From Chloranthus sessilifolius (Eukaryota; Streptophyta; Magnoliopsida; Chloranthales; Chloranthaceae): a DNA stretch of 64,000 nt. A program made the position numbers and the translations under genes. This document shows positions 29,601 through 62,162 of this stretch, in pieces. Below the pieces are notes generated by a model. The model was not told the origin of the DNA. It did no database searches and saw only the letters and a program-made list of their open reading frames with translations. The stretch lies in the NCBI GenBank assembly GCA_021018995.1, contig CM037587.1, positions 66,855,604 through 66,919,603 on the forward strand, read 5' to 3'. How positions within the stretch are numbered: the stretch's first letter is position 1; each line of letters begins with the position of its first letter.

Positions 29601-30379
29601 GCCATGGGTTGATCATTCACCACATTTGTAGGAGGTGATGAATGTATGGTTAATAATCCTTGACAACAACAGTCCTAATATGGCATAAATATTTTCAAAT
29701 TACAATTCACATGCATCAGCAACTACAGTTTGAAAACTACGACAAAATAAAGCAATGATGATTTAAAAACTATATACAAAACAGTGGTTTTGAGGGTGCA
29801 CTAAACAGTGGTCCAGAATAAGATGCATAAAGATGAAACATGAACCACACAATAAGCGCAAACACTCCCAAACCTTAATGGTGCATTGCCCTCATTGCAC
29901 AAAACAATAAGCAATGAAAACAGCAAGAGGGCAAACTGAAAAGTTATAAAATACAATACATGCACAATCTAAGCACACACAAACTAAACTAATCAAAACT
30001 AAAAGAAATTTCACGAAGTTACCCTGAAAGCGTGAAAAGCGTCGATTGTGGCCACAAGATGCGAAGAGTCGAGCCCTCGTGTTGAATTTATAGGCGTAAG
30101 AAGGCAGAATGCGAATCAGCAATCGACATGGCACGACGGAAAGTGAAGCAATGGCGTAAATGTACGCATAATCACTACGTCAAAATGATAAGAAAACCAC
30201 TTTTGCAATATAAAAAAGAACCACTGCCCAAGCAGTGGTGTAATAATTCACTCCCAAAATCCATTGTTTATTAAGTTAAAATAGTGGTTTAATTTCTAAC
30301 TATCATATCACGTGCACTCCTTCCTATTGTCACGTGCAAAATTATCGGGCAACTCTTTTCTATTTATTTGGCAACTCTT

Positions 30380-31458
30380 TTCTCTCACCCCATCTAACAA
30401 AACTACTGGCTCCTCCTCTCTCTTGCCCCATCGCCCTCTCACTCCATCTTCCTCTTCGAAACCCTAGCCTCCGGGATCTGTGGTGAAGGTTGGAGACGAT
30501 GTTGAAGCGATTTCTAAATTTCCGTTCAGATCACCTTCCTAGCTGATCAAATTCAAATTGGCTCAAAAGATGATAGCCTAACTCTCTAGATTCAGGTCAT
30601 CTCCGTCCTCGTCAAACCCTAACTCTCCAGATTCAGGTCATCTCCCTCCTCCTCAAACCCTAAATATCCAGATTAAGAGTCTTCTAAAATAAATTTTGCA
30701 CCTCCTTCTTAGATAGCCTGAAAGTTCTCCGACAACTGTGCACCTTCTTCGATAGCCTGAAAGGGAGCTGGTTTATCTGCAAGATTCTGCAGAGGCTCCG
30801 TCATCTTGGCTTCTCAGCCGTCGGATCTATCAAGATCAAGCATTTTCTATCTTGTTGCATCGCGTTCATGCTCTTCTTCATTGCTGGTCGTACAACTTCA
30901 TTCATGGGATGGAGTTCGAATGTGTCCACCACCCTCAGAGAATTTTCAATTCCGAGGTACGTAATGTTGTTTTCTTTCTTGTTTTGATGAAATGGTTTTT
31001 CTGCGAAATCATTTACGATCTTATGGAATTTAGATATTTCAGATAGAGATTGTTTTTTATTTGTGAAAGGAATTTCGATTTATAAACCATAGATTAGATC
31101 TGGTGTTTTTTTTTTTGGTTTGTAATTTTAGTTATCCATTGAGTAGATTAAATTTGTATTAATAGTTCTATTTGATTTCCTTAATTTACTATCCCTAATT
31201 AAGTTCCCTCGATTAATTCTAAGTTTTGTAGATTCGGTCTGTTAGAGTTTATATCAATTGTGGAATTTTTTTCTTTCTTCCTTTTTCTCTTTTTGCTAAT
31301 TTTGGTGAAAAGGAAAACGAAATGAAATAAAAGGAATGAGTCAGAATCCTAGTAACTCGTTATGAGTCGGAATCCTAGTAACTTGTTATGTGTGGCCTTT
31401 TTTATTGTTCTCGTCCAACTTTTCGCTATTTTTATAATAAACTTATGAGCACTCACCG

Positions 31459-31517
<59 letters not shown>

Positions 31518-32510
31518 CTCCTCAATCTTAATCTCGCTTTGCAGTAAGTCTTTATTGGTCTTCCCCTTCATGTTCCTTTCCTTTCCCTATCTATACTATA
31601 TATAATGGATAGGCAGGTGTGGTTTTGCCAAAGCCTAGTTAACTATTTTAGGTTGTAACTTTTTCTCTAGGAACAGAAGTTACAATATTGACACAATTAC
31701 ATTTAATGTGAAATTACTCTAAAGCCCTTCCCTAGCATTGATAAAGAGGCTCTATGGGAATCCTTGAAAAATTAAAAATTACCTTTCATATTAAGAAAGT
31801 ATAGAGAGCTTAGGCCTATTACTAAAATGTAACTCAACCACCTCTATATGCACAAGCCTCAAGTCCTCATTATTAGGACTTGAACATGACAAGCCACCAC
31901 GTCAATGGGCCTTGAGACAAAAACATTTGTTGATTTGATAATCATACCCATCCAACCAATGATCTTTTACATGTCAAATATCTGTCATCTTTGAACTGTC
32001 TACTGGTAGCTGCTCTATGATAGTCAACATTACCTGCTTGGGGTGATTTATAGGATTTTTCTATCTACTTATTGCCTGCCATGTGTGGTGATGTGGATCG
32101 ATGCCTTGGTTCTTGGCCCCATACTCACAATTTTTAGTATATATTGGATGTTCAACTATTTTCTAAATGGGAAAATATTTTCATTTCATATGTTGTGTTG
32201 GCTGTTAATTGTGTTGCATGTGTTGTGTTTGAATGCATCATGCACACCATTCACGTGTTCAAATGCATCATGCACCACTTAGTTTCTTTTTTCCATAGGG
32301 CATGTTGGCATTGCACCATCAAATAGGACTTGCATCCATTGCATACATTTCATAGTCGTGTTTTGTGTAGTATAGCACGCTATAGTCTCATGTCTTTCCT
32401 GTCTGTGAACTATGTTTGACCATCACACATGCCTTTTACTGGCATCTATAATGTGAAAAGTTGATAATATGATCATGGGTCTTAACTTTTTATGGTTTGT
32501 TTTTGTGCAA
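30380..32510. other. Left body of the composite element: UTR-like leader, short tandem repeat, AT-rich DNA
   Basis: 30,410-30,500 looks like a plant 5' UTR (pyrimidine-rich with CGAAACCCTAGCC). A unit of about 43 bp containing AGATTCAGGTCATCTCC and CAAACCCTAA is repeated at 30,587-30,670. A (TA)n tract lies at 31,461-31,515. The short open frames at 30,852-31,046 and 32,043-32,282 are not recognised. Confidence 0.35.
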
Positions 32511-33955
32511 TGGTAACCATGAGCGTGATTGGCCTAGAACAGGATCCTTCTATAACACTATGGATTCAGGTGGGGAATGTGGCGTACTAACTGAGACCAT
32601 GTTCTATGTTCCAACTGAAAACAGAGCTAAGTTTTGGTAACCTCTTCTAGCTAGTCCAAAGCCAATATCATTTTAATTTCTATTTGTTTCTTTTAAAATT
32701 TTGATGTAGAAGTGTCTGCCTGCATAAATATAAAGCAAAATACAAAATATAATAGGATGAACTATAATTTGTTGCTTTCTATGCTCATCGATCTTGACAG
32801 TTCAATCAATAGGTCACCTCTTGTATGGAGCATAAACTGAAAGCTGGACTGTTAATGAAGTTATAGGCACTGGTCCAAAAAAATGTCCACTGATCGGGTA
32901 GCGTCCGATTATTGTGATTTTTGGGCCATACTCCCTCCTAGAGGTGTTCACTGATTGGATGATAGCAATTGATGAGCACCTTTGCTGCTCAGTGGACAGA
33001 GAAGGCATGCACTGCCAACTTTCGCAGTGTGAACTTCCAATTACCAAAGTATAGTCTCTGAGAAGTTGAAACACATATCAAATGGACTAGCCAATGAGCC
33101 AGTGGATCTCACCACGAGGAATACTAGTTGCCTTCTGCATTGCAATATGATGTAATTTTAATTGTATAGTCTTATATGCCTCATACTTTATCGGTGAACG
33201 GTTTGCCACCAATTTAGGTCTAGTTCAGCAAATTAAGTGAATTGCAGTTTATATCCATGCATATATAGAATGTAAGTGGTTTACACAATAAAAAAACCTT
33301 ATGTGTAAACATTCCTATGTATAATACTTTAGCCAACAATTGACTCCCTACCCTACATCTCCTTCACTCTCCCCCAATGTAGGGCAACATATTTCTTCTA
33401 TTATTTAATTCTTAAGAATTACTTGCATAGCAACTACAATTTTTTTTTTTAATTCCGTGGTCTATTTATGAGGAGAATTGAACTAGCAAACTGATTTGGT
33501 GAACTAAAGTGAATTGTATTATCCTACCCTAAATGAAATGGGTTTGCTTGACAATGGCCAACTGTGATTCACAAACTCGAATTTTCCAACCATCAGAACC
33601 AGAAAACCAAGTAACATAGCTTGTAATCATGTCAACACCTTTATAGGTATTCTATAGATTATGGCATGTTTCGTTTTTGCATAGCAGACAATGAACACGC
33701 TGGAGAGAGGGTTCTGAACAATACAGATTCATTGAGCAATGCCTTGCATCAGCAGATAGGCAAAAACAACCATGACTTATATTTTCTGCCCATCATGTTT
33801 TAGGCTATACCTCTAACAACTGGTCTGCTTTAGATGGCACTTTTGGAGAACCTATGGGAAGAGAGAGCTTGCATAGGCTTTGGCAAAAGTATAAGGTGGA
33901 CATTGCATTCTACGGTCATGTCCACAACTATGAAAGGATGTGCCCTAACTACCAG
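32511..33955 (+). pseudogene. Purple acid phosphatase gene fragment (two exons)
   Basis: Exon 32,511-32,636: GNHERDWPRTGSFYNTMDSG through YVPTENRAKFW. Exon 33,647-33,955: YSIDYGMFRFCIADNEH, EQYRFIEQCLASADRQKQP, LDGTFGEPMGRESLHRLWQK, DIAFYGHVHNYERMCPNYQ. GNHE and GHVHNYER are metal-ligand motifs of plant purple acid phosphatases. Defects: the first acceptor is GCAA instead of GCAG; one base is missing after EHA (33,697-33,705), needed to reach WREGSEQY; the Trp codon of QPWLIF is TGA (about 33,770). N- and C-terminal exons are absent. It retains the intron, so it is a DNA-level copy and not a processed pseudogene. Confidence 0.8.
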
Positions 33956-34508
33956 GTATAACTGCATTCGAGCAATTATCTAAATTTTTAGTTGTCATCT
34001 TGCATACAGAGAAACTAGTTTACGTGCTCCATGCATGCACCAAGAAGATATCTTCATATATAACATACCCAATTAGACACATTGAGTACATATGAATTCA
34101 TGTGATGTTTTAATACTGATAACATCTGAGATTTATATTGCAAATGTCTATATCATGCACTGACGAAATAGATTCTCTTTTAAGGTTTCTAAAAAAAACT
34201 ACAGTTATAAATAGTTACAAATTATTAATTATCTAATTTCTCATGGAATCTGAGCTTAGGATGGTTTAATAAATACCTTTTCTTGAATATTTCTCTAGCT
34301 TTCTTTTTGTTCAAAGGATCAGGAAAACACTATCCACATGATTTACCCATGCCCATGCACAATTTGTCTCTCAACCAATTTACACCAGTAAATAGAGATC
34401 CGATTCTAATCTCTTTATTAAATGCGTAGAATAATTTTCTCGTTTTAGCAAATTTGTCACTAGTTTGTAATAATTAAAATTCTCATAATAAGGAAGAGCT
34501 CTGTTTCT

Positions 34509-37093
34509 CAATGTGTAATATCCTAAAAAATTTAACGTTTAACTTTGACCTCGTGAACCGTGCCCGATTAGTCATAGGGTTGACCAAGTGATGGTCAAAC
34601 AATGCACTTATAAAGTGATGAACCAATGTGAGGTCAATACGACTTAAGAGTAGTGTATAGTGTGAGTTAGTGGTCACATACACCTATCTCTGGTGTATGT
34701 GTTTAACACACAAGCAAGAGAGTGAATATAAGGGTTTAATAACCCTATTTCCCTTTTGTTTTGGGCTATTGAAGAGAGAGTTAAGAAGAGAGAGAGAGAA
34801 GTAAAGAGGAGTTATGAAGGCTAGAGGTTAATGCAAATCAAGAAGAGGAGTTAGCATTGATTGCTGGATTCAACACGTTAGGATCGTTGAAACGAAAAGC
34901 TGGAGCCCTAGCCATTCCAACCTAGATCTTGATCAATTTGAGGATTGATTGAAGGTGAGCTTTAAATTAATGTTAATGCACAGGTTGTAGATGATTAAAT
35001 TTGGTCGAATGTACTTAAAAGAGTAGATTAAAGGCATAGAAAAGAAAGGGGAAAAGATTTGGAAGAACAGCCAGAAAGGGGGCTGAATCAGACCAAATCG
35101 ATCAATCAAAATTAGGATTCGATTAATCGATTTTGGTCTGGAAGTTGAAAAGTCAGGTAAGCCCGATTTCGATTAATCGAATTTGATTTCGATTAATTGA
35201 TTTAGATGTTCGATTAATTGATTTGGAAATCGACTAATCGACTGGGTACCTCCAGTGGCTGGAGAAACATGACCTGAGGAAATCGACTAATCGAGTTGAG
35301 AAATAGATTAATCGACTTTGGATTTCGATTAATCGATTTGGAATCGACTAATCGATTTCGGATTTTCGACCACTCGATTTGAGAATCGACCTTATTAGGT
35401 TAGAGACTTCGATTAATCGATTTGGGATCAATTAATTGAATTTGAATCTCGATTAATCGATTTTGGGAATCGATTAATCGATTTGGGTTTCGATTAATTG
35501 ATTAATCGAATTGTGTTTTGATTAATCAATTTTGGGAATCGATTAATCAACTTTGGCAATTTTACCTAACTTTATAGTTTTACTTTGAGATTTATGGAGG
35601 GTCTAGGACCTTCTTCATTATATGTTTAGTGATGTATTGCATGTGTTATGATGTACCATAGGTGGTACGTGTGAAAGCGAGCACAAGGAGCCGCGTGGGA
35701 ACTTGATGCTTGGACCTTCAGAGAATTGAGGTAGGGAACACCTTGAACATGTATTTTAATTTCAAGAGTATGTATGTAGTGATATAATTATCAGATTTGA
35801 AGTTGTTTTAATCATGAAAAGTTTTGTGAAAATGGGTGTGTGTATAACACCAAGAATATGAAAAAGGCATTTGTGTGATGCAAGTGATTAAGATCAAGTA
35901 ATCTAATAAGAATAAGACATCCCCAGGGGATGAGAAGGTAAATAAGGCATCAAGTGTGATGCGAGTATGATATACATCCCAGGGATGTATATGTGATTGA
36001 ATAATTACTGTTGAGGCATAACTGATATAAGATAGCACTTTACACGGTGAATAACTATATGTAAAGCACATGCTATTTTTGTTATTTAAGGTTTGTTTAA
36101 AATATCCCACCGACGTGGCGGGATACCCACGACTAACACGGCAGGATATTCGTGACCGGTACGGCGGCCAATCCATACACCAGTACGGAGGTTTATCCGT
36201 AACAGTAAGCACATCCCAGGGATGTTGAGTGATATTTAACCCCGCCGCCTAGTGAGAAAGGGGCTTGGGTAGTATTCCGAGGGAATACATTAATTACAAC
36301 TGTCTATTTAGGCGACGATGGTGGGTATTGCATCGGGGCTCGATGCTATATTACTCGGAAATTACTTAAGTTAAGGATTTAAGTTTTACTTTAGGCATGT
36401 TTAGTGTCATTCATGATAAATCAACAGTAAAGTAAGACATGCTAATTACCAGTAAACTTGAATGCAAATTATCAGCTTTTAAAACCGTTTTCTAGCAAAT
36501 GCATAGACACATCATGCTTAGAATATCATGGAATATATGTGAGTTTTAACTTATATGTTCATTGTGTTTGTTCCCTATTGAGCTAGGATGTAGCTCACTC
36601 CTTTTGACTATACGTCGCAGGTCCATTGATTGCGGCAGCTGAGGCTTCGGGAGACGTAGATCCGGGTGATTCGGATTACGTGCCTGGAGACGAGTTGGAG
36701 CCTCCTCCCGAGGACTTCTTCTAGGAGACCCTGCTGTGTACTTTGACAGAGAGTAGTTTTGAGAGCTAATTGTACGGCTTGGTATGTCAAGCCCTTATTT
36801 TTGATAAACATGTAACTAGATTGGATTATTCTTTTGGCGAACCATCTGGGGTGATCAGTTTATCACCGATGGTTCGGGTCGGTTCTCTGTTCATGCAGTG
36901 GCATGAAGGTAGAACTGTCTTTTGCATATGCTAGTTGGGCATATTAACTTTTCTGCTTTACGAAAGTATTTACTTTATTTAATTATCATTGCTTATTATA
37001 CCAATGTTCCGTGCATAGTTTTGGGGCACGGTTTAGAGGATCGTGCTGATGGCACGGATTTCGGGGTGCCAAAATTCGGGCTGTCACACAATG
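34509..37093 (+). mobile_element. Solo Gypsy LTR with CAATG target duplication
   Basis: LTR 34,514-37,088, starting TGTAATATCC and ending GGGCTGTCACA. It is bounded by perfect 5-bp direct repeats CAATG (34,509-34,513 and 37,089-37,093). It shares end sequence and internal blocks with the full element at 40,240-53,564: the TCGATTAATCGA array (35,095-35,560), GC-rich tandem units GACGTGGCGGGATACCC and variants (36,112-36,200), and GAGCTAGGATGTAGCTC (36,580). It is clearly diverged from that element. A solo LTR indicates LTR-LTR recombination removed the body. Confidence 0.9.
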
Positions 37094-38690
37094 TGCTCAG
37101 ATGCAAACTAGGACCTTTGTTTCAGAAAACTGTACTGAGTTAATCAAAGAACCAATTTCTCCATCGAAACTCATAAGTGAAAGTTCAAATTATCGATTTC
37201 ACAACAATTCTCAAAAGGAAAACAACAAAGAAATGGAAATTTCAAGCTACTATAAATTTGCCAAATAATTCATAGGCTATAGGAACAGCCAAGTTTCTAA
37301 GTTTTATATTTTTTCTTCTTAGTGTTCTTTTTATCAGAAATGTTTGTTTCTTGTTGGATAGGAGAAATTCATATGATGTCTTTTTATTATACTTAAAGAC
37401 AACTTTGCCCCATGAACTAAGTCAAATGAAGAGCAAGTCTTAACTCGCTATTACTTTCCATTATCCAGTGGGGTACTCTATGATAATTCCTCAATATGGA
37501 GTTAGCGGCATAATAACATAACCCAATTTGCCATATAACATTGATTAAGGTTAGTTAGTAGGCGCTAGCCATCTAATCATGATCAGCTTGTTTAGCTATT
37601 CAAAAAAATAAGAGTAACACTTAAGTGGCTTCACGAATTATGATAATGCAAATTGGAAGTTACAAAATGTGCCTCAAAAGCTTTTGCACATGCATCCAGT
37701 TTGCACGTTGTACAAGGCACCTTGTCGGATATGACTACATGGCTAGGGGCACAAGAAAAATGAATATATTTGGATGCCTATGTATGTGGATAAACTGGAT
37801 ATAATTTGTCACACCATACAACATCTGATTGAACTTTAGATGTAAAAGATAGAAGCTTAAGTTGAAAAGAGAGGAAACTTCTGTATTGTAGAATATGGGA
37901 TTGAACTTTACACATAAACGATAGAAGTTTTAATTTGAAAAGAGAGGAAACATAGGTATTGTAGATTGTTCCAGGTTTTTCATGGTGATTAGTAAGCAAA
38001 CTCTTGAATTACCCTATGTAAACCCTATCAGTTGCATGCCCTACTTGTTAAGAGATAACTTACCTAATTAGCTGACATGTTATATGGTCCTGTATACCAA
38101 TTTCATTAATAACCGAGAGATTAGCTAATCTACACGCATCTATACGCATCTTAATGATCCATTTGGAGGCTTTTGGTTAGACGGCAAAATCATGCGATAG
38201 GATAATTTTTGGGCTCAATCCCATTTATGCAATACCTGCCATTTCACCATCTCAAATTAACGACCCATTTGGAAGCTTTTGATTGGACAACAAAGCTTAT
38301 GCAATAGGGTAATTTTTTTGCTTAATCCTATTATGCGATGCCTACCACTTTTCCATCTCAAACTGATAGAGTTATGAGCTGAGTCATCAAAACTTCAGAA
38401 AATATTGATTTGTTCATCTCTATATCGTTATTTTATTGGTTGTTGTGGTCATAATTGCATTTGAGATGGGGATGTGCTATTTCCCACATTGCTCGCAAGT
38501 ATTGGATAAGTTCATGGAGGACGATTTGCCCGATTTCCTATCAAAAGCTGAGTTTTTCGATGTCAAAGCTCCTAAAAATCCATGAAAGTCAATTTTGATA
38601 GAATGAAATGGCTAAAAGACTATTAGTAATAAATTTGATAGTGCCTTATGCCAGTGGTGAATTGTAGGGACTAGGAAATACTAATTTTCT
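37094..38690. other. Composite-element spacer, no gene recognised
   Basis: AT-rich. A direct repeat with TTGGACAACAAAGC-like and ATGCGAT(A)GG phrases occurs around 38,160-38,350 (two similar ~95-bp blocks starting CCATTTGGA). 38,450-38,590 has slightly exon-like codon use but no family match. Confidence 0.35.
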
Positions 38691-38711
38691 TGGGAATGTC
38701 AAATGTGCACA

Positions 38712-39201
38712 CTAACCTCTCTTAATTAATCAAGAGGATTGCTGAGGCAATTAAGAAGAAGGTTTGCAATGGCTTGCTATTAAAGGCAAGTCTCTTCATT
38801 TCTCTATTGCCACGTATCCGATATTTCAGCTGATGGGTTAGTTGTAATTTCTGGTTTTTTCATATTAGTGCTTTGAATTTAAGCTCTTTCGAACTCGTAC
38901 ATGGCTATTCTTTTGCAGTTTAACCAGATTGGGACCGTTACTGAATCCATTCAAGCAGCCCTTGACTCAAAAGCTGCTGGTTGGGGTGTGATGGCCGGCC
39001 ACCGTAGTGATGAGACAAAGGATAATTTTATCGTAGATCTCTCTGTTGGTCTAGCAAGCAGACAGGTTCGATAATTTTATATTTTCTTTCAAACTATTAT
39101 TTTTGTTGATACTATGGAGTTTTAACCTTTGTTTGCTGTCTCTACTTCAGATAAAGACAGGAGCTCCCTGCCGTAGTGAATGGCTTGCCAAATATAATTA
39201 G
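38712..39201 (+). pseudogene. Enolase gene fragment (three exons)
   Basis: Exon end 38,712-38,785: KRIAEAIKKKVCNGLLLK. Exon 38,919-39,065: [47 protein letters not shown]. Exon 39,151-39,201: IKTGAPCRSEWLAKYN then TAG. This is the C-terminal barrel segment of plant enolase. Defects: an in-frame TAA in the first piece (about 38,720), donor GC instead of GT at 38,786, conserved SHRSGETED changed to GHRSDETKD, and the final Gln codon CAG changed to TAG. Introns are retained. Same strand as the phosphatase fragment. Confidence 0.8.
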
Positions 39202-40234
39202 GTATTGGTGTCCCCTTTCTTATTTAAGTGGTTACCAACAAATATAGACAAATATAAGGAAGGTATTGCCAAATATAATCAGGTATTGGGTAAACTAGGT
39301 TCAAATAAAAGGAAGGGAGTCGACTCAAGGCAAGTCGGGTTGGGTTAGGAACTTCAAACCGAACCCAACAAATTTAATAAACAGGTTCAGATTTTCAATC
39401 TAACTTGTTAAAAATCTGAACCTAGTTCTTTTGTCACTAATATGTTAATAGCTACTGATCCATCAAACATTGATAAGCTTCCTCTTGGATGTCCATATGT
39501 TAATAGTTACTGATCCATATGACAATCTTAATGACCAGATCAAATTTTCAATCTGATGGATTATAATTTTATAAAAAGAAAATGAAAATAAAAATAAAAA
39601 TTGTTAGTATATAATCTGACAAGCCTATTTTTTTTATGCCTTATCTATGTTCCATCTGTCAAAAAATCAGTTTGCTTTGGTGTTCTTGATTTGCTTTCGA
39701 ATATTTTGAAGAGACTTGAACCTTTGTTTTTAAATTATATAATGAGGCACTCCAGATTTTCATAAAATTAGTTCACTCTTTTCATTTGATCTTAAAACTT
39801 CCCTGAATCGGTAAAATTCGCCATGTGGACCACTAGCCTTAAATTGTCCTACCCGATTCAACAAATTTCTGTATTAATGAGTGATTAGCCTTTTATTTTG
39901 GAGATTGCTGATTTAGTTGGTTGAATTTTAAAAGGTGCTTCCGAATTATTATTTTTTCCGTTCTTAAAGGTAAGGCGCGTCTTGTTTTTTGTTATCATGA
40001 TCATAGTCACAAAAATTCATTTATACGTAAAAAAAATTGCTTTTAGGACATGTTTTTGACCAAAATGTATGAGAATTGAGGTGTTTGTATGTAAAAATAT
40101 CTAAAGCACTATTTTCGTTTAAAAGTGCTTTGTACATTGTTTTTGGTATAAAAAATGTTTTTAAACAGAAAAAAGTATATTAATTTTTTATGTTATTTTC
40201 TTGTGTATTCCATTGTTTCAATTTTTTAAAAATT
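39202..40234. other. Composite-element spacer, AT-rich
   Basis: 39,340-39,425 has AGTCGGGTTGGGTTAGG and a small inverted pair (AACAGGTTCAGATTTTCAATC / GTTAAAAATCTGAACCTAG). Nothing else is recognised. Ends at the Gypsy target site CCTAA (40,235-40,239). Confidence 0.35.
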
Positions 40235-40239
40235 CCTAA

Positions 40240-42893: not shown

Positions 42894-42895
42894 GT

Positions 42896-42907
42896 TGGTA
42901 TCAGAGC
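42896..42907 (+). other. Primer-binding site (initiator tRNA-Met)
   Basis: TGGTATCAGAGC two bases after the LTR end CACA; the standard PBS of this retrotransposon class. Confidence 0.9.
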
Positions 42908-42984
42908 TAATTCTTTTAGCAATTTTGACAATTATTCTTTGGGTCAGAACATAGGGGCTTCTGCTAACGAAACGTTAGTTTCAA

Positions 42985-43999: not shown

Positions 44000-44103
44000 G
44001 ACAAAGAACAACAACAACACCAACAGAGGTTTCCATTACTTGCGTCGGGGAGACCTTTACGCTATGAGAACCCTGCCATGTCTCATCGGGCGCCACTAAC
44101 ACA

Positions 44104-44346: not shown

Positions 44347-44357
44347 CGTCATACAAG

Positions 44358-44847: not shown

Positions 44848-44859
44848 TCATTTTCAGAC

Positions 44860-45782: not shown

Positions 45783-46390
45783 ATGGGAGCAACCAAAGAC
45801 GGACCGATGTCCAAGTTTTCGGGCTTAGCGAGCTATTATCGACGCTTTCGTTGAGGGGTTTTCAAAGATATCGGGACCTCTCACAAAGTCGACACGAAAA
45901 GATTCAAGGTTTGAGTGGAGTGAGGGCGAGAAGAGTTTTCAAGAACTCAAACGAGACTCACTTCGCCCGTGTTAGCGATCCCTTGCAAAGTGGAGGATAC
46001 GCCGTGTACAAATGATGCGTCATACAATGGCCTTGGTTGTGTGCTCAACCAACACAAGAAGGTGATAGCTTACGAATCAAGACAGCTGAAGGAACACGAG
46101 AAAAATTACCCGACTCATGACTTGGAACTAGCAGCAGTCATTTTTGCGCTGAAGATTTGGAGACATTACTTGTATGGTGAGACTTTTGAAATTTTCACCG
46201 ATCATAAGAGCCTCCGATATCTCTTTACACAGAAGGAGCTCAACATGAGACAGCGCAGGTGGATGGAATTCCTCAAGGATTATGATTGCTCCATACAATA
46301 CCATCCTGGCAAGGCGAATGTAGTAGCCGATGCATTGAGTCGGAAAGGTTCAGCTCAGTTAGCTTCTTTGATTTTGGGAATGCACCGATG
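45783..46390 (+). pseudogene. Chromovirus RNase H
   Basis: After a degraded connection (FSGLASYYRRFVEGFSKI-like in shifted frames) the RNase H reads [96 protein letters not shown]. The first catalytic Asp segment (YTDAS) is NDAS here. Frameshifts precede 45,969. Confidence 0.85.
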
Positions 46391-47870: not shown

Positions 47871-48114
47871 TAATATCCAGCCTTGTTTCCAACGACATGA
47901 GAATTCAATGTAAACCACGAACGTGTTCGTAGAATCTCCACGATCCTTGTAATTCGATGGAAATTTTGCTCGATTGTATGATTAAAGGAATATTTTTCCT
48001 TCTTGTGTATATATGACCAAGTGTATGTATTTTTATGGAACCATGAACCACTTGATGTCATAAACTACCAAAAGAAATCAAAGAAACAAAGAGATTGAAA
48101 TTCTGCAGAAATTG

Positions 48115-48815
48115 GGCAAAACCGATTAATCGAATTTCGAATCGATTAATCGATTTGGAATTTCGATTAATCGATTTTGTTCAATTAGTCGACTGGCATG
48201 TACCAGTGACTGGAAATTGAAAGGAGAGTTAGAATATACATAGAAGGCAAATTTCGATTGATCGAGTTGGAATCTCGATTAATCGATTTGGGATCGACTA
48301 ATCGATTTTGAGAATCGATTAATCGATATTGGATTTCGATTAATCGAACTGGAATCTCGATTAATCGATTTACTTATGGGACTTGGAAGAAATTGAAGTC
48401 AGATAGACGATTTCGATTAATCGAAGTGAATTTTGATTAATCGAAGTGAATTTCGATTAATCGATTTTGAAATTTCGATTAATCGAAATGGATTTCGACT
48501 AATCGAATACTTAATGAATTCTGGAAATATAGAAGTTACTACACGATTTCGATTAATCGAAGTAAATTTCGATTAATCGATTTTGAATTTTCGATTAATC
48601 GAAATGGATTTCGATTAATCGACTGGCTCGCGCCAGTGAGCTCAAAAAACTTAAATTTTTAAACGGATGCGATTTCGATTAATCGAAATGTTTTCGATTA
48701 ATCAAATTTAACTTTCGATTGATCGATTTGAGAAATCGATTAATCGATTTTACGCGGCTTAACCTAGTTTTGAATTTTGATTAATCGAAATAGAATTTCG
48801 ATTAATCGAAAAAGC
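48115..48815 (+). repeat. Internal array of TCGATTAATCGA palindromes
   Basis: More than twenty copies of (A/T)TTCGATTAATCGA(A/T) or one-base variants spaced 15-40 bp. They lie between the integrase end and the TATA-like sequence of the extra ORF. It is not part of the LTR but has the same motif as the LTR arrays of this element. Confidence 0.85.
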
Positions 48816-48816
48816 C

Positions 48817-48827
48817 TATATATATAA
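48817..48827 (+). promoter_or_regulatory. TATA-like box upstream of the extra ORF
   Basis: CCTATATATATAAAAATTGG, 220 bp before the ATG at 49,047. It is followed by a pyrimidine-rich, CCAACCAACCGAG-containing leader and a possible leader intron donor AAG|GTAAAC at 48,972. Suggests a separate transcript; this is inference. Confidence 0.5.
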
Positions 48828-49046
48828 AAATTGGGGATTTCATTTCCCATTCAAAATTTTTCTTGCTTGGGATTTTGGGCGTTTCATCTTCTCCTTCTTC
48901 TCCAACCAACCGAGTGGTCTAGGGTTTGGATCTTCCGTTGATTCGCTTCCGAATCCGCCTTCGAAACTTAAGGTAAACCCTAGATTTCCGCTTTTCTTTC
49001 AATTTGAGTTAGTTAAAAACCCTAGATTCGTCCTATTTCACCCAAA

Positions 49047-50619
49047 ATGCCGCCCAAAACCCGATTATCTTCGAAGAAGGCGACTTCTAAGTTGCCGGTT
49101 AGGCGTAAGAACGCCGCACCACCACCACCTACCCCATCGCCGGTGAGGACTCCATCACCGTCGGCATCGGAGACCACCTCCGGTTCGACGAGCGCGTCTA
49201 CGCGCGAGTCTTCTCCACACCCATGCCCCCACCACCCACTAATGTAATACAACCAAACCAAGACCTTTGAGGTCGATCGTCATCGACCCTACCCTATTCA
49301 CCGATCCCGATGTGCCGGGCGAGACCCAATGGGCTCGAAACTACCTCAATAACGCCGGCCTCGGCAACCTTCTCAAACCAATCCGGGGTTCATACTACCC
49401 TAGATTGGTTAGACTGTTCTACCAAGGGCTAACCGATGGCCCTACCGATGATTGTATTTTGACCAAGATCGAGGGTCGTCTATACACGATCACTCGTCGT
49501 CACATCCACGAGGTACTCGAGTGTTACCTCGATTTCACTCCAGAGACCACCTTATTCCCACCCTTCGAGGAGGACCCTCGATTCGAGGAGGTCATGACCC
49601 GCATGACCAATGGTAAAAAGGGGTCGGGCTCCTCCATCAAGAGGGTTGACCTTCCACACTATATGTGGATGCTCGACTCGGTGATAAAGTGCAACCTTTA
49701 CCCGATGTGCCACGACACCGAGCGCGTGGACAAAGTGCAACATGCACTTTATGCGGCCTTCTGTGGCCGGTGGTTCGACGCCACAATGGTCATCCTAGAA
49801 GGGATGAAATACATCAAGGGCAAGCTAATGAAGGGCAACATGCGGCCCAAGGAGAAGATGCCGTATGCTCGGCTCATCTCGAGCATGTTGGAGTGCTACT
49901 CCGACGAGCCCTCCTACAGCATCTCGCCTCACGAGGTGAGGGCTACGTATCGCGTGAAGACGTTTACGAAGTCTTCATGGACCCGTAGCTACAATCTGCT
50001 CAAGCGGACCCTACCAGCTCCGGGTCTCGCTCCAGCCCCAGCCGTAGCAGCAGCAGCAGCGGTAGCACCGCCACCACCCCCACCACCTCAGCAGGACCCA
50101 CCCGTGGGTGGGGCACACCCTATTCCCGCCGAGCCATCCGTGGAGAGGGTTCCCTCCCACACCACAGCCTCACCGACCCCACCTGCCCACTCCGCGCCCG
50201 CGTCACCCACCTCATCCTACCGCCGGCGCGCCGCTCCATCCGGTCCTACCATCGAGGACGTGTTGGCTCGCATGGAGGCCAACAACGAGCGGATGAACCG
50301 GAGGATGGACTTCTTGATGTTCCACACCCTCCGCTACATCTACTCGACGGACTACCACCGCTACCTCGCCCAGGAGGAGGAGTGGACCGCTGGACGCACC
50401 GCCTTCCATCGAGGACCCGTCTTCCATCCTACCCCAGCCACTACAGACGCGGTTCCTTCCACATCTGCCTCCGCTCTGCCGACTGAGACGCTTCCACCAC
50501 CGTCGCCACCACCGCAGCTGCAACCACCTCCAGCAGACCCGCCAGCCACTGAAGTACCGTCACCTCAGATGGAGCAGCCTGCTCCAGCACCAGACCTGCC
50601 TGGCGGGGGGATTGCATGA
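49047..50619 (+). CDS. Extra ORF of the chromovirus (plant transposon protein-like, function unknown)
   Basis: ATG at 49,047 (MPPKTRLSSKKATSKLPVRR, basic then Pro/Ser-rich) runs to a stop at 49,247. The main part is open in another frame from 49,267 to 50,619 (450 codons), so there is a frameshift or splice at about 49,215-49,267. The folded-looking part TQWARNYLNNAG, GSYYPRLVRLFYQGL, KIEGRLYTITRRHIHEVLEC, LPHYMWMLDSVIKCNLYPMC resembles the putative plant transposon/retrotransposon protein domain (Transposase_32 type) of unknown role. The C-terminus is low complexity (Ala and Pro runs) with a possible helical stretch ANNERMNRRMDFL. The region is clearly GC-richer than everything around it. 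Not needed for the basic chromovirus cycle. Confidence 0.65.
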
Positions 50620-50907
50620 GTTTTATTTTTTTATGAGTCATGATTGTATAGATGTATGTTTTGTACGCCAACTCATGTGGCGCCTTGTAAAAAAAAAATT
50701 TGCTGATATTAATAGAAATCCAAACTTTTTGTGTACATTGTTCACATTCGTCAAATTTAAATTCTATGCTAGTATATGTAACTAATTTAATGTGTTTGAG
50801 TCAACTGGATCGCCTCACCTGAGAGTGTCGGGGGGGGGGGCGAGAGAGACCCAGCCAGACAAACCTTGGATTATTTTTGAGGACAAAAATTCCCAAGGTG
50901 GGGAGGA
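50620..50907 (+). other. 3' UTR and polypurine tract of the chromovirus
   Basis: After the extra ORF stop: a TTTGTACGCC stretch, A9 (50,691), G10 (50,831-50,840), and then CAAGGTGGGGAGGA, the polypurine tract, directly before the 3' LTR start at 50,908. Confidence 0.75.
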
Positions 50908-53564
50908 TGTAATAGCCCAAAAAATCACGCTAAACTATGACCTCGGGATCCGTGCCCGATTGGTCACAAGTTTGACCAATCAGGAGATCAAGAGTTAGCA
51001 TAGAATGTGATGAACGGACGAGATGTGATGGGTTGAATGCCTATGTGGTGTGTGTTGTGAATGTGAAGTCGCATACACCTACCGCGGTGTATGTGCTCAA
51101 CACACACGTGAGGAAAGGGATAAAAGGGTTTAATAACCCTAAATGTGTGTTTTTGGTGGTTGAGAGAGAAGTAAAGAAGAGAGAGAGAGAGAGGAAGTAA
51201 AGAGAGGAGTTATTGCAACTGATTTGGAGGGGGGATTCAAGCGATAAAAGTCGGATTCAACACGGTTTGGATCTGTTAGAGCCAAAGCTGGAAACCCTAG
51301 CCTTCCAACCATTTGATTTGAAATCAATTCGAGATTGATTCAAGGTAAATTTTTGTAATCAAATGCATAGATTATAGGGGTTAAGTTGTGGTTGAAAGTG
51401 GGTTAAATCATAGGATAATGGGTTAGAAAAATAGAGGAAAAAGTATGGAAGAAGATTGAGAAGAACAGCTCGAAAGGGGCTGAATCTGACAATTTCGATT
51501 AATCGAAATTGGGTTTCGATTAATCGAAATTTGCCAGGAAGTTGAAAGGTCAGAGGACCCCGATTTCGATTAATCGACCTGGGATTTCGATTGATCGATT
51601 TGGGTATCGATTAATCGACTGGGAACCTCCAGTGGACCCCAGGGGTTGGAGGAAAGGACTTGAGGGAAATCGACTAATCGAAATGGGATTTCGATTAATC
51701 GATTCGATTTTTGATTAATCGATTTGGGATCGATTAATCGATTTTAAGAACTTCGACTACTCGAATCGAGAATCGACTTTCTGGCCGAAATTTCGATTAA
51801 TCAATTAGGATTCGAATCGAATGAAAACTCGACTACTCGAATTGAGAATAGACTTTGGCGAGAATTTCGATTAATCAATTAGGATTGATTAATCGAATGA
51901 AAATCGAACTACCGAATTGAGAATCGACTTTGGCGAGAATTTGATTAATCGAATTAGGATTCGATTAATCGAATGAAAATCGAACTACTCAATTGAGAAT
52001 CGACTTTGCGAAGCAGAATTTGATTAATCGAATGAGATTCGATTAATCGATATTGACTTTCGATTAATCGATTTTGGATTTCGATTAATCGACTGAGATA
52101 AAATTTCTTGACTTTTGGATTTGACTTTAAGATTCTTGGAGAGTCTTAGACCTTCTTTATTGCATCCTTTGTGATGTGTTTCACCTGTTATGTGGTACCA
52201 TAGGTGGTACGTGTGGACTAGTGCATAAGGAGCCACGTGGGACCTTGATGCAATGATCAAATGAAGACTTGAGGTAGGGAACACCTTGAACATGTACTTT
52301 ATTTTACAAGAGCATGTATGTAGTGATATAGAATTCAATTCAAATGTTTATTTCTTAAGAATTTGTGAAAAGTGTGTGTGTGTGACATCCATAAGGGTAA
52401 TCATGATGAGCCATCCCCAGGGGATGAAGAAGTAAAGAGATAAGAGCATAAGGTGTGATGCAAGTAAATGGATACATCCCAGGGATGTATCCAAGGATTG
52501 AATCATGTTTGATAGGGCCTAACTGATATAAGATAGCACACTTACACGGTGAATAACTATATATAAGGCACCGATATTTTTGTTATTTGAGGTTTGATAG
52601 GTTACCCCACCGACGTGGCGGGATATCCACGACTGACACGGCAGGATATCCGTGACCGATACGGCGGCGAAACCGTAGGCCAGTGCGGAGGCTTATCCGT
52701 ACATAATAAGCACACCCCAGGGGTGTTGATTGAGACAAGTGAGACCCCGCCACCAATCCCCAGGGGAAAGGGGCTTGGGTACTATATTTGTATTCCCAGG
52801 GAATACGTTAAAACTGTCTATATAGATGACGATGAAGGGTATCTCATCGGGGCTCGATGCCATATTGCTCGGGGATTACTTAAGTTGAAAGTTTAAGTTT
52901 TGCTTTAGGCCTTTTCAGCATCATTCATGAGTAAATGAAAACATAAGTAATCAACAGTAAAACGAAATGCTTTTTAACTGTTTTCATCAATAACTGCATA
53001 GACACATCATGCATGGCATATCATGGAATATATGTGAGTTATAATTTATATGTTCAACCGTGTTTGTTCCCTATTGATCTAGGATGTAGCTCACCCTATA
53101 GACTATACGCCGAGTCCACTAGCATTGGCCGAGGCTTGAGACCGACCTCGGTGAGTGGACCTACTACGGTGACGACAGTTGGAGCCACCTCCTGAGGACT
53201 TCTTCTAGAGGACTCCGTTGTGCCACTTTGAGGGCTTTTTAGAGAGATTTTGTACGGCTTGGTATGTCAAGCCTTGATTTTGTTTAAAACCATGTACAGA
53301 AGGAGTTGGGATTATTCTTTTGGGACGAACCATCCGTGATGATTTCTATCATCGATGGTTCGGATCGGTTCTCCATTCATGCAGAGGCATGAGGGTAGAA
53401 TTGTCTTTTGGGAAGTTAATTAATATAGATTTAAATTCCGCAAATTCGTTTATTATACTTTGCGATGCTTGATATACCAGCGTTCCGTGCTTAGCTAAAG
53501 GGCATGGTCAAGATGATCGTGCTGATGGCACGGGTTTCGGGGTGCCGAAATCCGGGCTGTCACA
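50908..53564 (+). repeat. 3' LTR of the chromovirus
   Basis: 2,657 bp. Nearly identical to the 5' LTR over long stretches (50,935-51,500, 52,110-53,090, 53,190-53,560). Differences are clustered: many short deletions in the palindrome array (51,700-52,030), and a scrambled block at 53,108-53,175 where the 5' copy reads CGTCGCAGGTCCACTACTAG. Ends CTGTCACA followed by TSD CCTAA. Confidence 0.9.
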
Positions 53565-53605
53565 CCTAATGTACATAGTTTTTTCCTACTTTAGGCTATG
53601 TTATC

Positions 53606-53793
53606 CTAGGCCAAGATCTTATCTCTAGCTTTGGTGAAGATAGCGATGAATTTAGCATGCTCTGATGGCCCAAGTAAATGTGGAAGTCTTCCTTGGAATC
53701 GAATGTGAACAAGAAGGCGTGGATGAAACCTTGTCCCAGCGTCTCCTTTGTCACCAAATATTGTCCCCCTTTAATACATTGCACACTTTTCAT
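53606..53793 (-). pseudogene. Stress-response A/B barrel (Dabb) protein fragment
   Basis: Minus strand: TLGQGFIHAFLFTFDSKEDF with HIYLGH, then after a one-base shift PSEHAKFIAIFTKARDKILA and a stop at 53,608. This matches the C-terminal half of plant Dabb/stress-responsive proteins (QGFTHxFxxTFxSxEDLxxYxxHPxHxEF). The N-terminal part is missing. It lies right beside the chromovirus target site and opposite to the other captured fragments. Confidence 0.55.
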
Positions 53794-53959
53794 CAGTTTA
53801 TATCATAGTGACCAAATACACAGTTTTTGTGAAAAATGTGAAAAAAAAATAATTCTCATTTTTCTGAAGAAAAAAAATGCGTTTCATTCCCAATTTAAAA
53901 CCCTTGTTTGGTTAATTATTTTTTATAGTTATTAATATTTTCAGATATTTTTTAATGTT

Positions 53960-54122
53960 TGAATTGATTCCAACATGTCTTTGACAACGACAATGTTTTG
54001 TTGGAAGAAATAGAGAACTCTGTCCGTAAAGCGTTTCTTACGGTAGACCTTGCTTTAGTAGATGATTGTTCCGTCAGCAGTTCTTCTGGGACTACTGCAC
54101 TCACTGCTTTGATATTTGGAAG
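53960..54122 (+). pseudogene. Protein phosphatase 2C exon fragment
   Basis: DNDNVLLEEIENSVRKAFLT, then VDLALVDDCSVSSSSGTTAL and TALIFGR with donor GGAAG|GTTAGT at 54,123. SSGTTALTALIFGR is a hallmark of plant PP2C phosphatases. An in-frame TGA lies at the 5' edge (about 53,960). The following catalytic exons (VANAGDCRAVL) are not found; only this exon was captured. Confidence 0.75.
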
Positions 54123-55480
54123 GTTAGTGAAGCTTCAAAGACTTTGTTTGATTCATGTTAAGAGTGTTAATTTCTTGATTCTATGTATGTGATCCATAAA
54201 TCTCTCCTCTTTATGGTTGCTCTCTCATTTTTACCACTATTATATAATAATGGCTTGAGAATACTACGATATTGTTATTATCCCTATTCTCTTGACATTG
54301 AAATCCTATTGATTTTTACATGGTTATAACCAATGCTACTGTTATTTGTCCCTAAGTTTCTCTTTGATTCTAAGACTTCTAATTTTCTCATTGCACCCGT
54401 AATTGAGCATGGCCATAGATCTCATAGTACTTTGCAAATGAATATAGCCATACATAAACGATTTTTTGTCAGAAGATCTGCAAAAAATGCTCGACTCCAC
54501 AATAAATCCGTTCGTGTCAATCATTTGGTGGCTTCCTGTATGTAAGGGAATCTAATACTATCTGATATTGGGGTTCCTGAGAAGCGAATTTGTCACGCTC
54601 CACTGAATGGAAATAGCCTACCTCGTGTTTTACATCCGAAAGATGATTGAATATTTGAATATTACATGGCCTCGCTGCCAAAGGTGTTTCTAGCCCTGTT
54701 GGGTTACTCGGTTTCTTCTCTTCTCTGAGTGTAGTCACAACAGGGGTGGTCTATACCCATCTGTTTAACTTTGGTATCTTGGAAAACAACAACAGTTCAT
54801 TGCATATTTTCCCCCCTATAATTTGATTTGTGGTTAGGGTCATCAATGCTAGGTGGCATCCTATACTGCCATATCAGATATATTTAGTGATCATTTTTGG
54901 GGGCAGTTTTTCGCATCATAATGTGCAGTCTTCTTTAAGTATACCAAAATTCCATTTTTGCAAAAGATAATTGTATCCTTCATTTACAAAAGGATCATGG
55001 TCATTATCATGTTTTTGCTTCTAAAACTGCATGTAATCTGTGTTGCATTAGATGGTTTATGGGAAGTTTTATTCACATCCTGATGAGATATTAGAAAACG
55101 GAGCATGATAATTTTTGGGTTTCCTAGTTGACTATAAAAACTTTTCTTGTAAGAAGTTTTATCAAATACCTAACCTATTAGTATAGGCAAAAGGTTTAGT
55201 ATATATCTATGTGTTATCCATTTAGGAGAAAAGTTTATGATTCAAAGCAGTCAATGATTTTCAGCTGTACTTAATGGGGGATATTTAGTTTTTGGTGTAT
55301 TGGCCCCTTAAATAATCAATGCTCGAATTAGATTTCCGTAGAGATAACTTTTACTACTAAGCTATTTAAGTTTAAATTGCTATGTGGATTTCACTCGAAA
55401 AAATTGATAAATTTGGCCTGAGCACCATCTCTAGATTTATCTTGTGCAATCTTTGAAGTAAATAGCATTGGATTTCAAAA
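54123..55480. other. Composite-element spacer
   Basis: Weak open frames at 54,333-54,545 (plus) and 54,517-54,738 (minus) have no recognised domain. The phrase TTCAAAGCAGTCAATGATTTT at about 55,236 is a short relic of the long-inverted-repeat family. Confidence 0.3.
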
Positions 55481-56080: not shown

Positions 56081-56547
56081 AGCCCTATATATATATTTAT
56101 ATAATTTTATAAATATAAGGGAGGAATCTATTACCATCAAGAACGTAGTCAATGGTTTGACCGAGGTCAAATAGGTCAAACCGGTCACCAAGTCAGCAAA
56201 TCAACTTTCTGCTGGGTCACTATAGGCTGCCTGCAGTATTTCATGCTTTTGTCGTTGGCGAGTGCCAAATTCACGAATGAGATGGAAAGAGTATCACAAA
56301 AAGACAATTGTCCATCAAATCCTATCTAAAGCTGACTTCTAAAAGCTTAACCTTATGAGGCTGGTGACACCTTATTAATCCCACATAAATCTATCTTATT
56401 TGCGAATGGGCAGTACTTCAATACATGGTCTGGTGGCCTGCCATACATTAGTTTAATAACCTTTTTGTTTTGATGGACCAATAGTTTGAACTCTTACATT
56501 GGTTTAATATGCTCATTGGGGCACGTCACCGTTTTCTCTTCTCACAG

Positions 56548-56812
56548 CCCAGAGATTGGGACGACAGAGAGTATATTGAAGACCCTAATGCTGTCAAACC
56601 AGCAGTAATCGGTTTGTATATGAATATTTCATTCCAACCCTTTGCCTTGGATTCTACATTGCCTATAATTTCTTCTTCGCACTGCAGGGATATGATTCAA
56701 TTCCAGCTGAAATTCCTGATCCAAAGGCTATGGAGGTGTGTTAATTGTCATCGAGCAAGGTGGCTCGATGCCAAAGATATCAAACAGCATATATTACCAT
56801 TGAAGTCATATG

Positions 56813-56893
<81 letters not shown>

Positions 56894-57181
56894 CTCAATT
56901 AACCTATTGTCAATGGAACAATCACAGCCTGATAACTGGGATGAAGATGAAGATGGTATTTGGAGACGACCAAAGATACCAAACCCAGCATACAAGGGGC
57001 CATGGAAGCCCAAGGTTCGCCTGCACGAACTTTTAACGAATTCCTCTTAACCATAATTTTTTAGGCTTGGTCTGATTTGGTTTTTTGTTTCACATTTCCG
57101 GTATAATCTATATGACCTTACCAAAGATCAAGAATCCAAACTATAAAGGGGAATGGAAGATCCCATGGATCGACCACCCAG
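56548..57181 (+). pseudogene. Calnexin gene fragment (four exons)
   Basis: Exons 56,548-56,604 (PRDWDDREYIEDPNAVKPA), 56,688-56,735 (GYDSIPAEIPDPKAME), 56,928-57,014 ([20 protein letters not shown] then AYKGPWKPK) and 57,124-57,181 (KIKNPNYKGEWKIPWIDHP). These are the P-domain repeats of plant calnexin, an ER lectin chaperone. The first three exons are intact with good splice sites; the fourth lacks an AG acceptor (ACCAAAG). Flanking exons, signal peptide and membrane segment are absent. A 72-bp (TA)n lies in the intron before exon 3 (56,818-56,890). Confidence 0.85.
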
Positions 57182-57530
57182 GTAAATTTCAAACCTTCAG
57201 AAGTTTGTGGCTAAATGATATGGTCACCTCTTGTAATGTTGAGAACTATATGAACATTGCTTGAGTTTTATGAAGAACTGAGATCATATTAAACGGTCTT
57301 TCTAAATTCATTTCTGTCCACATGCGTATATTTCTTCATCCCTAATTGCAATGCGGGGTACTTCTATTTGCGCTTACCAGATTACTGGTGGGCACCTACA
57401 CTAAACTCTGTTGACTGTGTGGAATCAGACGATCATGATCATTTTTCATGACAATCTTCCACACAATGTATGTTACAAATGCATTTTGTCTACTATTCCT
57501 TCATTTGACGAATCTCTGATTATTATGTAG

Positions 57531-57675
57531 GAGGTTCCAGAGGGGCGGAAAGATAGTCCGGGAGGCCCGTGGCATTTCATTGGTCTCATGCCCCTCTTTG
57601 ATCCTCCCCGACATGATAGTGCAGAAACCATCAAGAGGGCGCTCAACCTTGGTGTAAATGTTAAAATGATCACAG
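57531..57675 (+). pseudogene. Plasma-membrane H+-ATPase exon fragment
   Basis: [48 protein letters not shown], preceded by a good acceptor (TTATTATGTAG). This is the nucleotide-binding region before the TGDQLAIGKET motif of P-type proton pumps. The expected GTGA after MITG is missing (ACAG|TTTAG) and the phosphorylation and membrane segments are absent. It lies 350 bp after the calnexin piece on the same strand. Confidence 0.85.
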
Positions 57676-58260
57676 TTTAGCTTCTCAGTGCGACACCATG
57701 AACTCTACTTTGATTAGACGCTAGGGGACGGGACCACTTGGCAGGAGAGGCGAAACAAATTTTTTTATTTTTTTTCTTTTATTTTGAAAATGGGCCATGG
57801 GGTCAGATTGTTAACTCTTTTTCTTTTGTTCTTCTTTTTATTTGAATAAAAGGATTGGGCATGTAGAGTATAAAATGTTTGGTTGATTTGAAAAAATAGG
57901 TTGAAATGCAACCTTTTGCTTGAATAAAAGAATTGGGCATCTATTTTTTTTATTAATAGAATGATTTGCATTTGAGTTGAATGGATGTGTTTAAATATGT
58001 GATTAATAGCTTTTTTTTCTTTATATAATTTTTTTTAAAGCATTGAAAAAAAAGCATTAAAAAAAAACATTTAAAAAGCATTAAAAAATTATATTAAAAA
58101 AATTACATTAAAAAAAAAGCATTAAAAAATTTCATTAAAGAAAGCATAAAAAAAATATTATTTAAAAAAAAATTGCATAAAAAATCGTCGACGTAATTTT
58201 TTTTTTTTAAAGTATTTTTTAAAAAAAAAGTTTGCATAAAAAAGATTTTTTCTATGACTA
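57676..58260. other. A/T homopolymer-rich right body of the composite element
   Basis: 58,010-58,250 consists of runs of A6-A9 with repeated GCATTAAAAAAA phrases. No coding signal. Grades into the CAGTGG-containing terminal region. Confidence 0.4.
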
Positions 58261-58419
58261 TTAAGAGCAGTCGTTGTTAAAATTCATAAACCACTGTCGT
58301 ATATAGTGGTAAAAAAAAAACCACTGCTTTTTTTACAACTAATTAGGGCAGTGGTTTTTTTGGAAAAATCCACTGTCAAAGACAATGGTTTTTTTGGCTT
58401 TTTCACGTGAAGTGGAATA

Positions 58420-62110: not shown

Positions 62111-62162
62111 ATGTACTCTTTGGATTATACTTCGTAAATCAAACCATAAGTCGTGAGATTAA

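Follow-up and report, generated by a model that had tools for sequence, protein, structure and literature searches.

The window, a 64,000-nucleotide stretch of the Chloranthus sessilifolius genome (contig CM037587.1, positions 66,855,604 to 66,919,603), holds a CACTA (EnSpm)-type 5' end at 30173 and a matching 3' end most likely at 58408. Between these ends lie host coding pieces, an arrangement that defines Pack-CACTA (Pack-TYPE) elements (Table 1). Seven cargo pieces were supported by searches, six on the plus and one on the minus strand: a probable GT64 glycosyltransferase, purple acid phosphatase (PAP), NPR1, enolase, Dabb, calnexin, and H+-ATPase. The first-pass annotation had proposed fragments of at least six host genes and named six; profile or PDB matches bore out PAP, enolase, Dabb, calnexin, and H+-ATPase, and the sixth, whose motif suggests that it may be a PP2C phosphatase, gave no Pfam match and no phosphatase among its PDB matches and is kept as a possible eighth piece. 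The probable GT64 first exon and the NPR1 C terminus, both missed in that annotation, bring the supported pieces to seven. For PAP, Dabb, and every calnexin exon but one, the Pfam score fell below Pfam's own cut-off, as expected for such short pieces. The gene pieces retained exons (by Pfam matches) and introns (read by eye), and a second enolase exon piece was read by eye at ∼39148 to 39195. We found no transposase among the cargo ORFs scanned with Pfam (part of all ORFs), and Pfam returned nothing convincing for 18 more ORFs from unexplained stretches and one other-frame ORF overlapping the GT64 exon.

Table 1. Features of the CACTA element and its flanks, in window coordinates.
Feature	Position	Strand	Evidence
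Left target-site bases AAT	30170..30172		Empty-site alignment; no intact right partner recognised
CACTA 5' terminus (CACTACGTCAAAATGATAAG...) and subterminal region	30173..30619	+	Match starts at 30173; alignment of ends
Probable GT64 glycosyltransferase gene fragment: first coding exon and part of intron 1	30758..31393	+	94% to putative donor, C2:147.80 Mb
PAP-NPR1 block, left part, before solo LTR	31390..34513	+	94-95% copies at C10:41.60, C2:36.42, C3:17.79 Mb
PAP exon (diphosphonucleotide phosphatase type)	33776..33958	+	PDB 3zk4 1.4e-23; PF00149 0.0018, below cut-off
Solo LTR, duplication CAATG	34514..37088		Junctions; uninterrupted copies elsewhere
PAP-NPR1 block, right part	37089..38533	+	95% at C2:36.42 and C3:17.79 Mb
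NPR1-like C-terminal exon fragment, cut at junction	38460..38533	+	PF12313 3.1e-9
Junction between two blocks	38534..38535		Missing from 6/6 copies compared
Start of enolase-to-ATPase block	38536..40239	+	Copies at other loci
Enolase exon	38901..39071	+	PF00113 7.1e-20; PDB 1.1e-19
Full-length LTR retrotransposon (Gypsy in the first-pass annotation), duplication CCTAA	40240..53564		Empty sites in L039 and L040; LTR comparison
Dabb (stress-responsive A/B barrel) fragment	53656..53790	-	PF07876 4.4e-4, below cut-off; PDB 8s4e 8.7e-4
Possible PP2C phosphatase exon	53992..54123	+	Motif; no Pfam match; no phosphatase in PDB
Calnexin (calnexin/calreticulin) exons and introns	56542..57180	+	PF00262 on three exon ORFs: 7.3e-6, 0.0011, 0.0016; trimmed exon 7.3e-4
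Plasma-membrane H+-ATPase exon	57531..57677	+	PDB 5ksd 4.3e-22; no Pfam match
CACTA 3' subterminal region and truncated 3' terminus ...GGCTTTTTCACGT	57721..58408	+	Family ends; empty-site alignment
Host flank, continuous with 29923-30172 in empty sites	58409..58668		Joined-flank matches and alignment

The GT64 fragment aligned to its putative donor as far as 31367, and 31368 to 31393, a tandem-repeated continuation, was read by eye. At that locus, an exon encoding a GT64 domain (PF09258, 1.3e-37) lies 7.7 kb downstream on the same strand, and we infer that both exons belong to one gene. The NPR1-like exon continues in a copy elsewhere (Pfam 1.2e-14).

The ends belong to a large family in this genome, which shares the 5' end and has a 3' region likewise common to many loci. 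The CACTA-like 5' end had already been placed at 30173, and this position is exact, with 38 of the 42 listed matches to the first 448 bp (the window itself counted) starting at query base 1. The 3' region starts at ∼57721, where 38 of 43 listed matches begin (query base 304-308). The terminal inverted repeat of CACTA (EnSpm) elements, which begins CACTA/CACTR, was found, with CACTACGTCAAAATG at the 5' end and ...CACGTAGTG at the family 3' end, as were their subterminal repeat motifs, in the form of ACCACTG enrichment: 13 occurrences in the window versus 5.0 expected, a number reached in 0 of 100 shuffles. The motif had been proposed as subterminal; the 5' end contains two of the copies and the 3' end three, but another two, at 29782 and 29806, lie a short way beyond the element. 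Both end types were paired in each of four intact relatives (6.1-10.3 kb), all with matching 3-bp target duplications (GGT, CCC, TGA, and GTG), which argues against the two ends belonging to separate short elements. No ORF >142 aa was present in these four, and 7 of 12 family 5' ends had no recognisable 3' end within the 9 to 19 kb read downstream. Relatives hold other cargo, namely DHX37, actin-capping, methyltransferase, or GT64 pieces; those checked were mostly the best matches to the window's first kilobase, and because the GT64 piece lies in that kilobase, this sample is biased toward GT64. In some relatives, minus-strand ORFs looked like second, inverted copies of the GT64 and actin-capping regions; this reading was dropped, as their coordinates are numbered from the opposite end and correspond to the 5' region itself.

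When the window's flanks were joined, they proved contiguous elsewhere, the join being spanned by 27 of 42 matches (two of the 42 being the window's own flanks), and the interval 30173-58408 thus represents one insertion site. The repeat is uninterrupted at C5:88.91 Mb, for example. We aligned five empty sites base by base. The first-pass annotation had put the 3' end at 58415. A reading of that end with AAT duplicated on both sides was rejected once the empty sites were aligned: the best of them has GAAGTGG unchanged, three others (C8:40.6, C12:8.7, and C4:144) have it in a related form, and the stretch is missing at the fifth, C10:34. The alignment places the end most likely at 58408, and the AAT found at 58416 seems to belong to the host. 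The AGTG that closes the family 3' end is missing from the window copy; on the best reading, it was deleted there together with the right target duplication. The 3-bp duplication found in the four relatives has no intact counterpart in the window, where AAT stands on the left and the right partner is unreadable because the right junction was deleted. Both LTR insertions break sequence that is contiguous at other loci, in agreement with the earlier proposal that one element was later split by two insertions, which that proposal called Gypsy; without them, the element measures ∼12.3 kb.

These observations bear on whether the fragments could simply be decayed local genes in ancestral order. Such genes would account for the retained exons and introns, and we nevertheless rejected this origin as having almost no chance of being correct: the cargo blocks recur at many dispersed loci (longer matches mostly 92-97%), the putative GT64 donor is on another chromosome, and the flanks meet at an empty site elsewhere. 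The pairing of ends in relatives and the contiguous flanks instead uphold the claim that the fragments lie within one element. We conclude that 30173-58408 is very probably a single nonautonomous CACTA element of the Pack-CACTA type, which was inserted as a unit and later modified.

We looked among the listed matches for copies sharing both ends and any fragment, taking 44 5' ends, 39 3' ends, and 65 cargo loci for a proximity count and leaving out additional pieces of a locus already counted, matches to microsatellites or short repeats, and 70-79% matches to PAP genes. Two of the 39 3' ends followed a same-strand cargo copy at a distance of no more than 2 kb. One locus, L045, carries part of the window cargo with its order kept and the same 3' end: 39261-40247, 53565-53906, 57159-57284, a further H+-ATPase exon (by eye), 57721-58393, and a complete CACGTAGTG end. 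None of the 44 5' ends was within 40 kb of a listed cargo copy, and the matches listed included no second full copy in which this cargo is joined to the 5' end. This lack of a second full copy, like the lack of an intact duplication in the window, is what would be seen if two adjacent CACTA insertions, one without its 3' end and the other without its 5' end, had left remnants that never moved together. We consider this improbable, because the flanks are contiguous at other loci with only ∼ten bases missing at the join, and two remnants would need to have landed within a few bases of each other.

We were also concerned that the PAP-NPR1 block (31390-38533 without the LTR) might be a different gene-carrying transposon, either inserted into a single real CACTA element or carried whole, with its right side later trimmed. 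Of the 51 listed matches, 9 start exactly at 31390, so this position may be the terminus of another repeat and the block a nested insertion, and among the matches listed no other locus links the block to a CACTA end. Against this, three copies run on alike for at least ∼300 bp past the right border at 38533, so that this border is no common terminus, and no duplication was seen around the block. On balance, we regard such nesting as possible but doubtful. The enolase block may also spread by another route, given that L039 and L040 have it in common from enolase as far as 56125 and that the 8 kb read there showed no complete family end; the 5'-like string CACTACGTCAAAAC occurs in L039 only, inside a 67-bp stretch missing from L040.

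Returning to the single Pack-CACTA element, we propose that it would be a hybrid of a left partner (the 5' end and GT64), the PAP-NPR1 stretch, and a right partner (enolase, Dabb, calnexin, ATPase, and the 3' end). The parts may have been joined with little or no homology, as GTGT is shared at 31390-31393 and at most a few filler bases lie at 38534. In a published model, neighbouring CACTA insertions lose their facing ends and then move as one, and the proposed hybrid build fits this model. The ∼12.3 kb unit, with transposase presumably supplied by another element, would have landed in one copy of a dispersed repeat; the 3' junction would later have undergone a small deletion that removed the last four bases, the right target duplication, and ∼ten host bases, and the two LTR elements would have been received after insertion. 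More tentatively, the CACTA family might act as a shared pool of gene pieces, whose members fuse repeatedly with each other and with genome stretches and so reshuffle exon blocks into different multigene elements, the element here being a fusion of two cargo lineages and the PAP-NPR1 stretch. If so, pieces lying mostly in one direction behind a captured first exon would be predicted to allow chimeric transcripts. As an instance of serial gene capture by a DNA transposon, the locus has clean boundaries, and a single genome supplies its empty site, a putative donor gene, sharp junctions, and relatives whose cargo overlaps, so that the order of captures and the way of joining could be read from sequence. 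Annotation could mistake such transposon-borne pieces for genes.

Pack-MULEs and gene-carrying Helitrons hold multigene fragment cargo, as the window element does, but they have other ends and target sites, whereas its ends are those of CACTA with 3-bp duplications in relatives. Both are named alongside Tgm-Express1, a soybean CACTA element of the wp allele whose 5.7 kb contain five unrelated host gene fragments; these serve as exons and introns, and their splicing was demonstrated (PMC1947982). The window element resembles Tgm-Express1 in its CACTA ends around unrelated host gene fragments and differs in its ∼12.3 kb and its seven supported pieces plus a possible eighth. Chenopodium CACTA elements also contain host gene fragments, which in the accessible text lie upstream of the element's own coding region, whereas the window element had no transposase among the ORFs scanned (PMC8978399). 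The Pack-CACTA elements of Arabidopsis, rice, and maize also have nonautonomous CACTA ends around coding pieces from several loci; the number of distinct loci is highest in the maize elements and is larger in wider elements (PMC8903248). Ours comes from another plant and family, and its cargo blocks turn up at many loci in varying combinations. Such elements are already known, and the one in the window is a rich, well-bounded example whose empty landing site is identified.

We tested four aspects of the CACTA insertion at 30173-58408: its two ends, whether the interval they enclose is intact, which genes its cargo derives from, and the joint occurrence of cargo and ends elsewhere. A genome search with the first 1001 bp of the element gave 47 matches (40 scored of 1315 candidates), and when the query was cut to its first 448 bp, a start exactly at 30173 was shared by 38 of the 42 matches listed, indicating that the 5' end proposed by the first-pass annotation is real and sharp. 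The query 57416-58415 gave 43 matches (40 scored of 2474 candidates); as 38 of these started at query base 304-308, the family's 3' region begins at ~57721. Other copies with both ends, which had been suggested as a check, were found as four intact relatives with matching 3-bp flanks. A fifth relative (C5:120.00) has both end regions, the 3' end being interrupted, and no recognisable 3' end was found for seven of 12 family 5' ends in the 9-19 kb read downstream of each. At L037 (C3:174.27 Mb) and L038 (174.30 Mb), one CACTA element with identical immediate flanks is present in two copies ~32 kb apart, probably through segmental duplication.

Features of the element (window positions) and its intact relatives (chromosome:Mb)
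Feature	Position	Length (bp)	Flanks or duplication	Remarks
Intact relative	C11:109.68	9010	GGT, matching	ends CACTA.../...TAGTG
Intact relative	C14:25.17	9301	CCC, matching	ends CACTA.../...TAGTG
Intact relative	C2:115.22	10255	TGA, matching	ends CACTA.../...TAGTG
Intact relative	C3:174.27	6116	GTG, matching	ends CACTA.../...TAGTG; two copies with identical flanks
First exon and intron	30758-31393			newly found; probably GT64 glycosyltransferase gene
Solo LTR	34514-37088		CAATG	splits cargo
NPR1-like C-terminal piece	38460-38533			newly found; profile match 3.1e-9
Full-length LTR element	40240-53564		CCTAA	splits cargo

To look for an empty site, we joined the 250 bp ending at 30172 to the 250 bp starting at 58419 and used this as a genome query. 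The join was crossed by 27 of the 42 matches listed (two of the 42 being the window's own flanks), the best at C5:88910944-88911475 with 81% over query 2-500. A single copy of a dispersed repeat thus surrounds the interval, which bears out the claim of one element. We then aligned five empty sites, among the best, base by base. The best reads ...GTAATAAAAGGCATGTGAAGTGGATT... at the junction; the window has ...AAT directly before CACTA on the left and ...GGCTTTTTCACGT|GAAGTGGAAT... on the right. This alignment places the last element base most likely at 58408, leaving the terminal AGTG, the right-hand duplication and ~10 host bases missing, so that the 3' end stands as a family end with its boundary moved from 58415. 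GAAGTGG is exact in the best empty site and similar in three more, and the stretch is missing from the fifth; GT may have served as microhomology in the 3'-junction deletion. An AAT at 58416 resembles a right target duplication but was rejected as such, since on this alignment it appears to be host sequence. Of the 3-bp duplication initially proposed as a test, the window copy has AAT on the left, and the intact relatives have both sides.

The proposal that two later insertions divide the element held up, as uninterrupted copies exist at both points. Two other loci, L039 and L040, read straight through the equivalent point of the full-length LTR element, and the solo LTR is missing at C10:41.60, C2:36.42 and C3:17.79 Mb, where the coordinates are gap-free. 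The LTRs of the full-length element differ by 61 mismatches in 2696 aligned columns (81 gapped), or ~2.3%. At grass substitution rates such divergence corresponds to the order of one million years, which would be the approximate age of this element, or longer if the plant is slow-evolving. By arithmetic, the element without both insertions and their duplications measures ~12.3 kb. L039 and L040 are 98% alike, and both hold the enolase-Dabb-putative PP2C block and an extra 1.9 kb missing from the window; complete family ends were not seen in the 8 kb read, and a 67-bp stretch with the string CACTACGTCAAAAC is present in L039 and missing from L040. Beyond the right flank, 59420-64000 is LTR-retrotransposon-like (by eye, repeats rich in cgattaatcg followed by a gag-like start), and 63827-63988 is 75% like 43617-43778 within the full-length LTR element.

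Five of the six genes originally named were supported: purple acid phosphatase (PAP; diphosphonucleotide phosphatase closest), enolase and Dabb (minus strand) by profile/PDB matches, calnexin (several exons) by profile matches, and plasma-membrane H+-ATPase by a PDB match. For the sixth, PP2C, Pfam and PDB searches gave neither profile support nor a phosphatase match. Six of the seven supported pieces lie on the plus strand, and GT/AG exon borders are visible by eye. In other copies the NPR1-like exon runs on beyond the block border, with a match of 1.2e-14 in one of them. A putative donor of the GT64 piece, 94% identical and without a CACTA end, lies at C2 147.80 Mb; a GT64-domain exon lies 7.7 kb downstream of it in the same orientation, and we infer that the two exons belong to one gene.

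Gene pieces were also found at other family 5' ends, of which we read 12 (C3:125, C11:109, C14:25, C14:95, C5:120, C2:115, C3:135, C4:80, C5:116, C1:36, C2:109 and C3:174). The GT64 piece is present in six, a share biased upward because the 12 were mostly picked by likeness to the 5' kilobase of the window's element. In four GT64 carriers (C3:125, C14:25, C5:120 and C2:115) it is accompanied by a DHX37 helicase piece; that of C14:25 matches DHX37 in PDB (8.4e-11), and the other three were identified from the residues they share with it. No helicase match came from Pfam for those DHX37-like pieces that were scanned. An F-actin-capping protein beta subunit exon occurs in two of the 12 (the duplicated element of L037 and L038 carries the first exon), and a methyltransferase piece in two, L021 (C3:135.0 Mb) and L024 (C5:116.7 Mb), one below the Pfam cut-off. 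No such piece was recognised among the stretches read at C4:80 and C1:36. L021 and L024 also share a second, different CACTA-type start (CACTAAGTGAAAATGACAC), preceded by the same twelve bases in both; an F-box/LRR-like fragment lies ~1 kb beyond it in L021.

Sharp borders separate the window's cargo into blocks. Long copies (94-95%) of the PAP-NPR1 block (31390-38533) are present at three loci; the enolase-to-ATPase block (from 38536) recurs at many more, with identities mostly of 92-97% among its longer copies. At the junction 38533/38536, the joined sequences continue otherwise in six compared copies, three per side, and the GT64 intron has GTGT at 31390-31393 in common with the block that follows. 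The PAP-NPR1 block may be a transposon nested in the element, as nine of the 51 matches listed start exactly at 31390, probably the terminus of a different repeat family; seven of these nine (window 31390-31480) are <100 bp. The right block is linked to the family 3' end independently of the window, via the partial cargo copy L045, which holds, in order, 39261-40247, 53565-53906, 57159-57284, a further H+-ATPase exon (by eye), 57721-58393 and the complete 3' terminus. Among the matches listed, two of 39 3' ends lie downstream of a same-strand cargo copy within 2 kb and four of 39 within 40 kb; none of 44 5' ends has a cargo copy within 40 kb, which is the main gap in the case. Most simply, the element is read as a hybrid in which two CACTA elements flank the PAP-NPR1 stretch. 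The two elements would have inserted in tandem, undergone facing terminal deletions and been mobilised jointly, a published model described in PMC8903248 and PMC13317346, through which the original Arabidopsis paper is cited.

The element fits most of the Pack-CACTA definition; in the window copy the right target duplication is deleted, and no transposase was seen among the cargo ORFs scanned, nor any ORF above 142 aa in the four intact relatives. According to PMC8903248, maize Pack-CACTAs stand out among Pack-TYPE elements as holding pieces of the largest number of distinct loci. Soybean Tgm-Express1, as described in PMC1947982, carries five gene fragments in 5.7 kb, compared with seven or eight pieces in ~12.3 kb here, making the window element a rich example of a kind already known.
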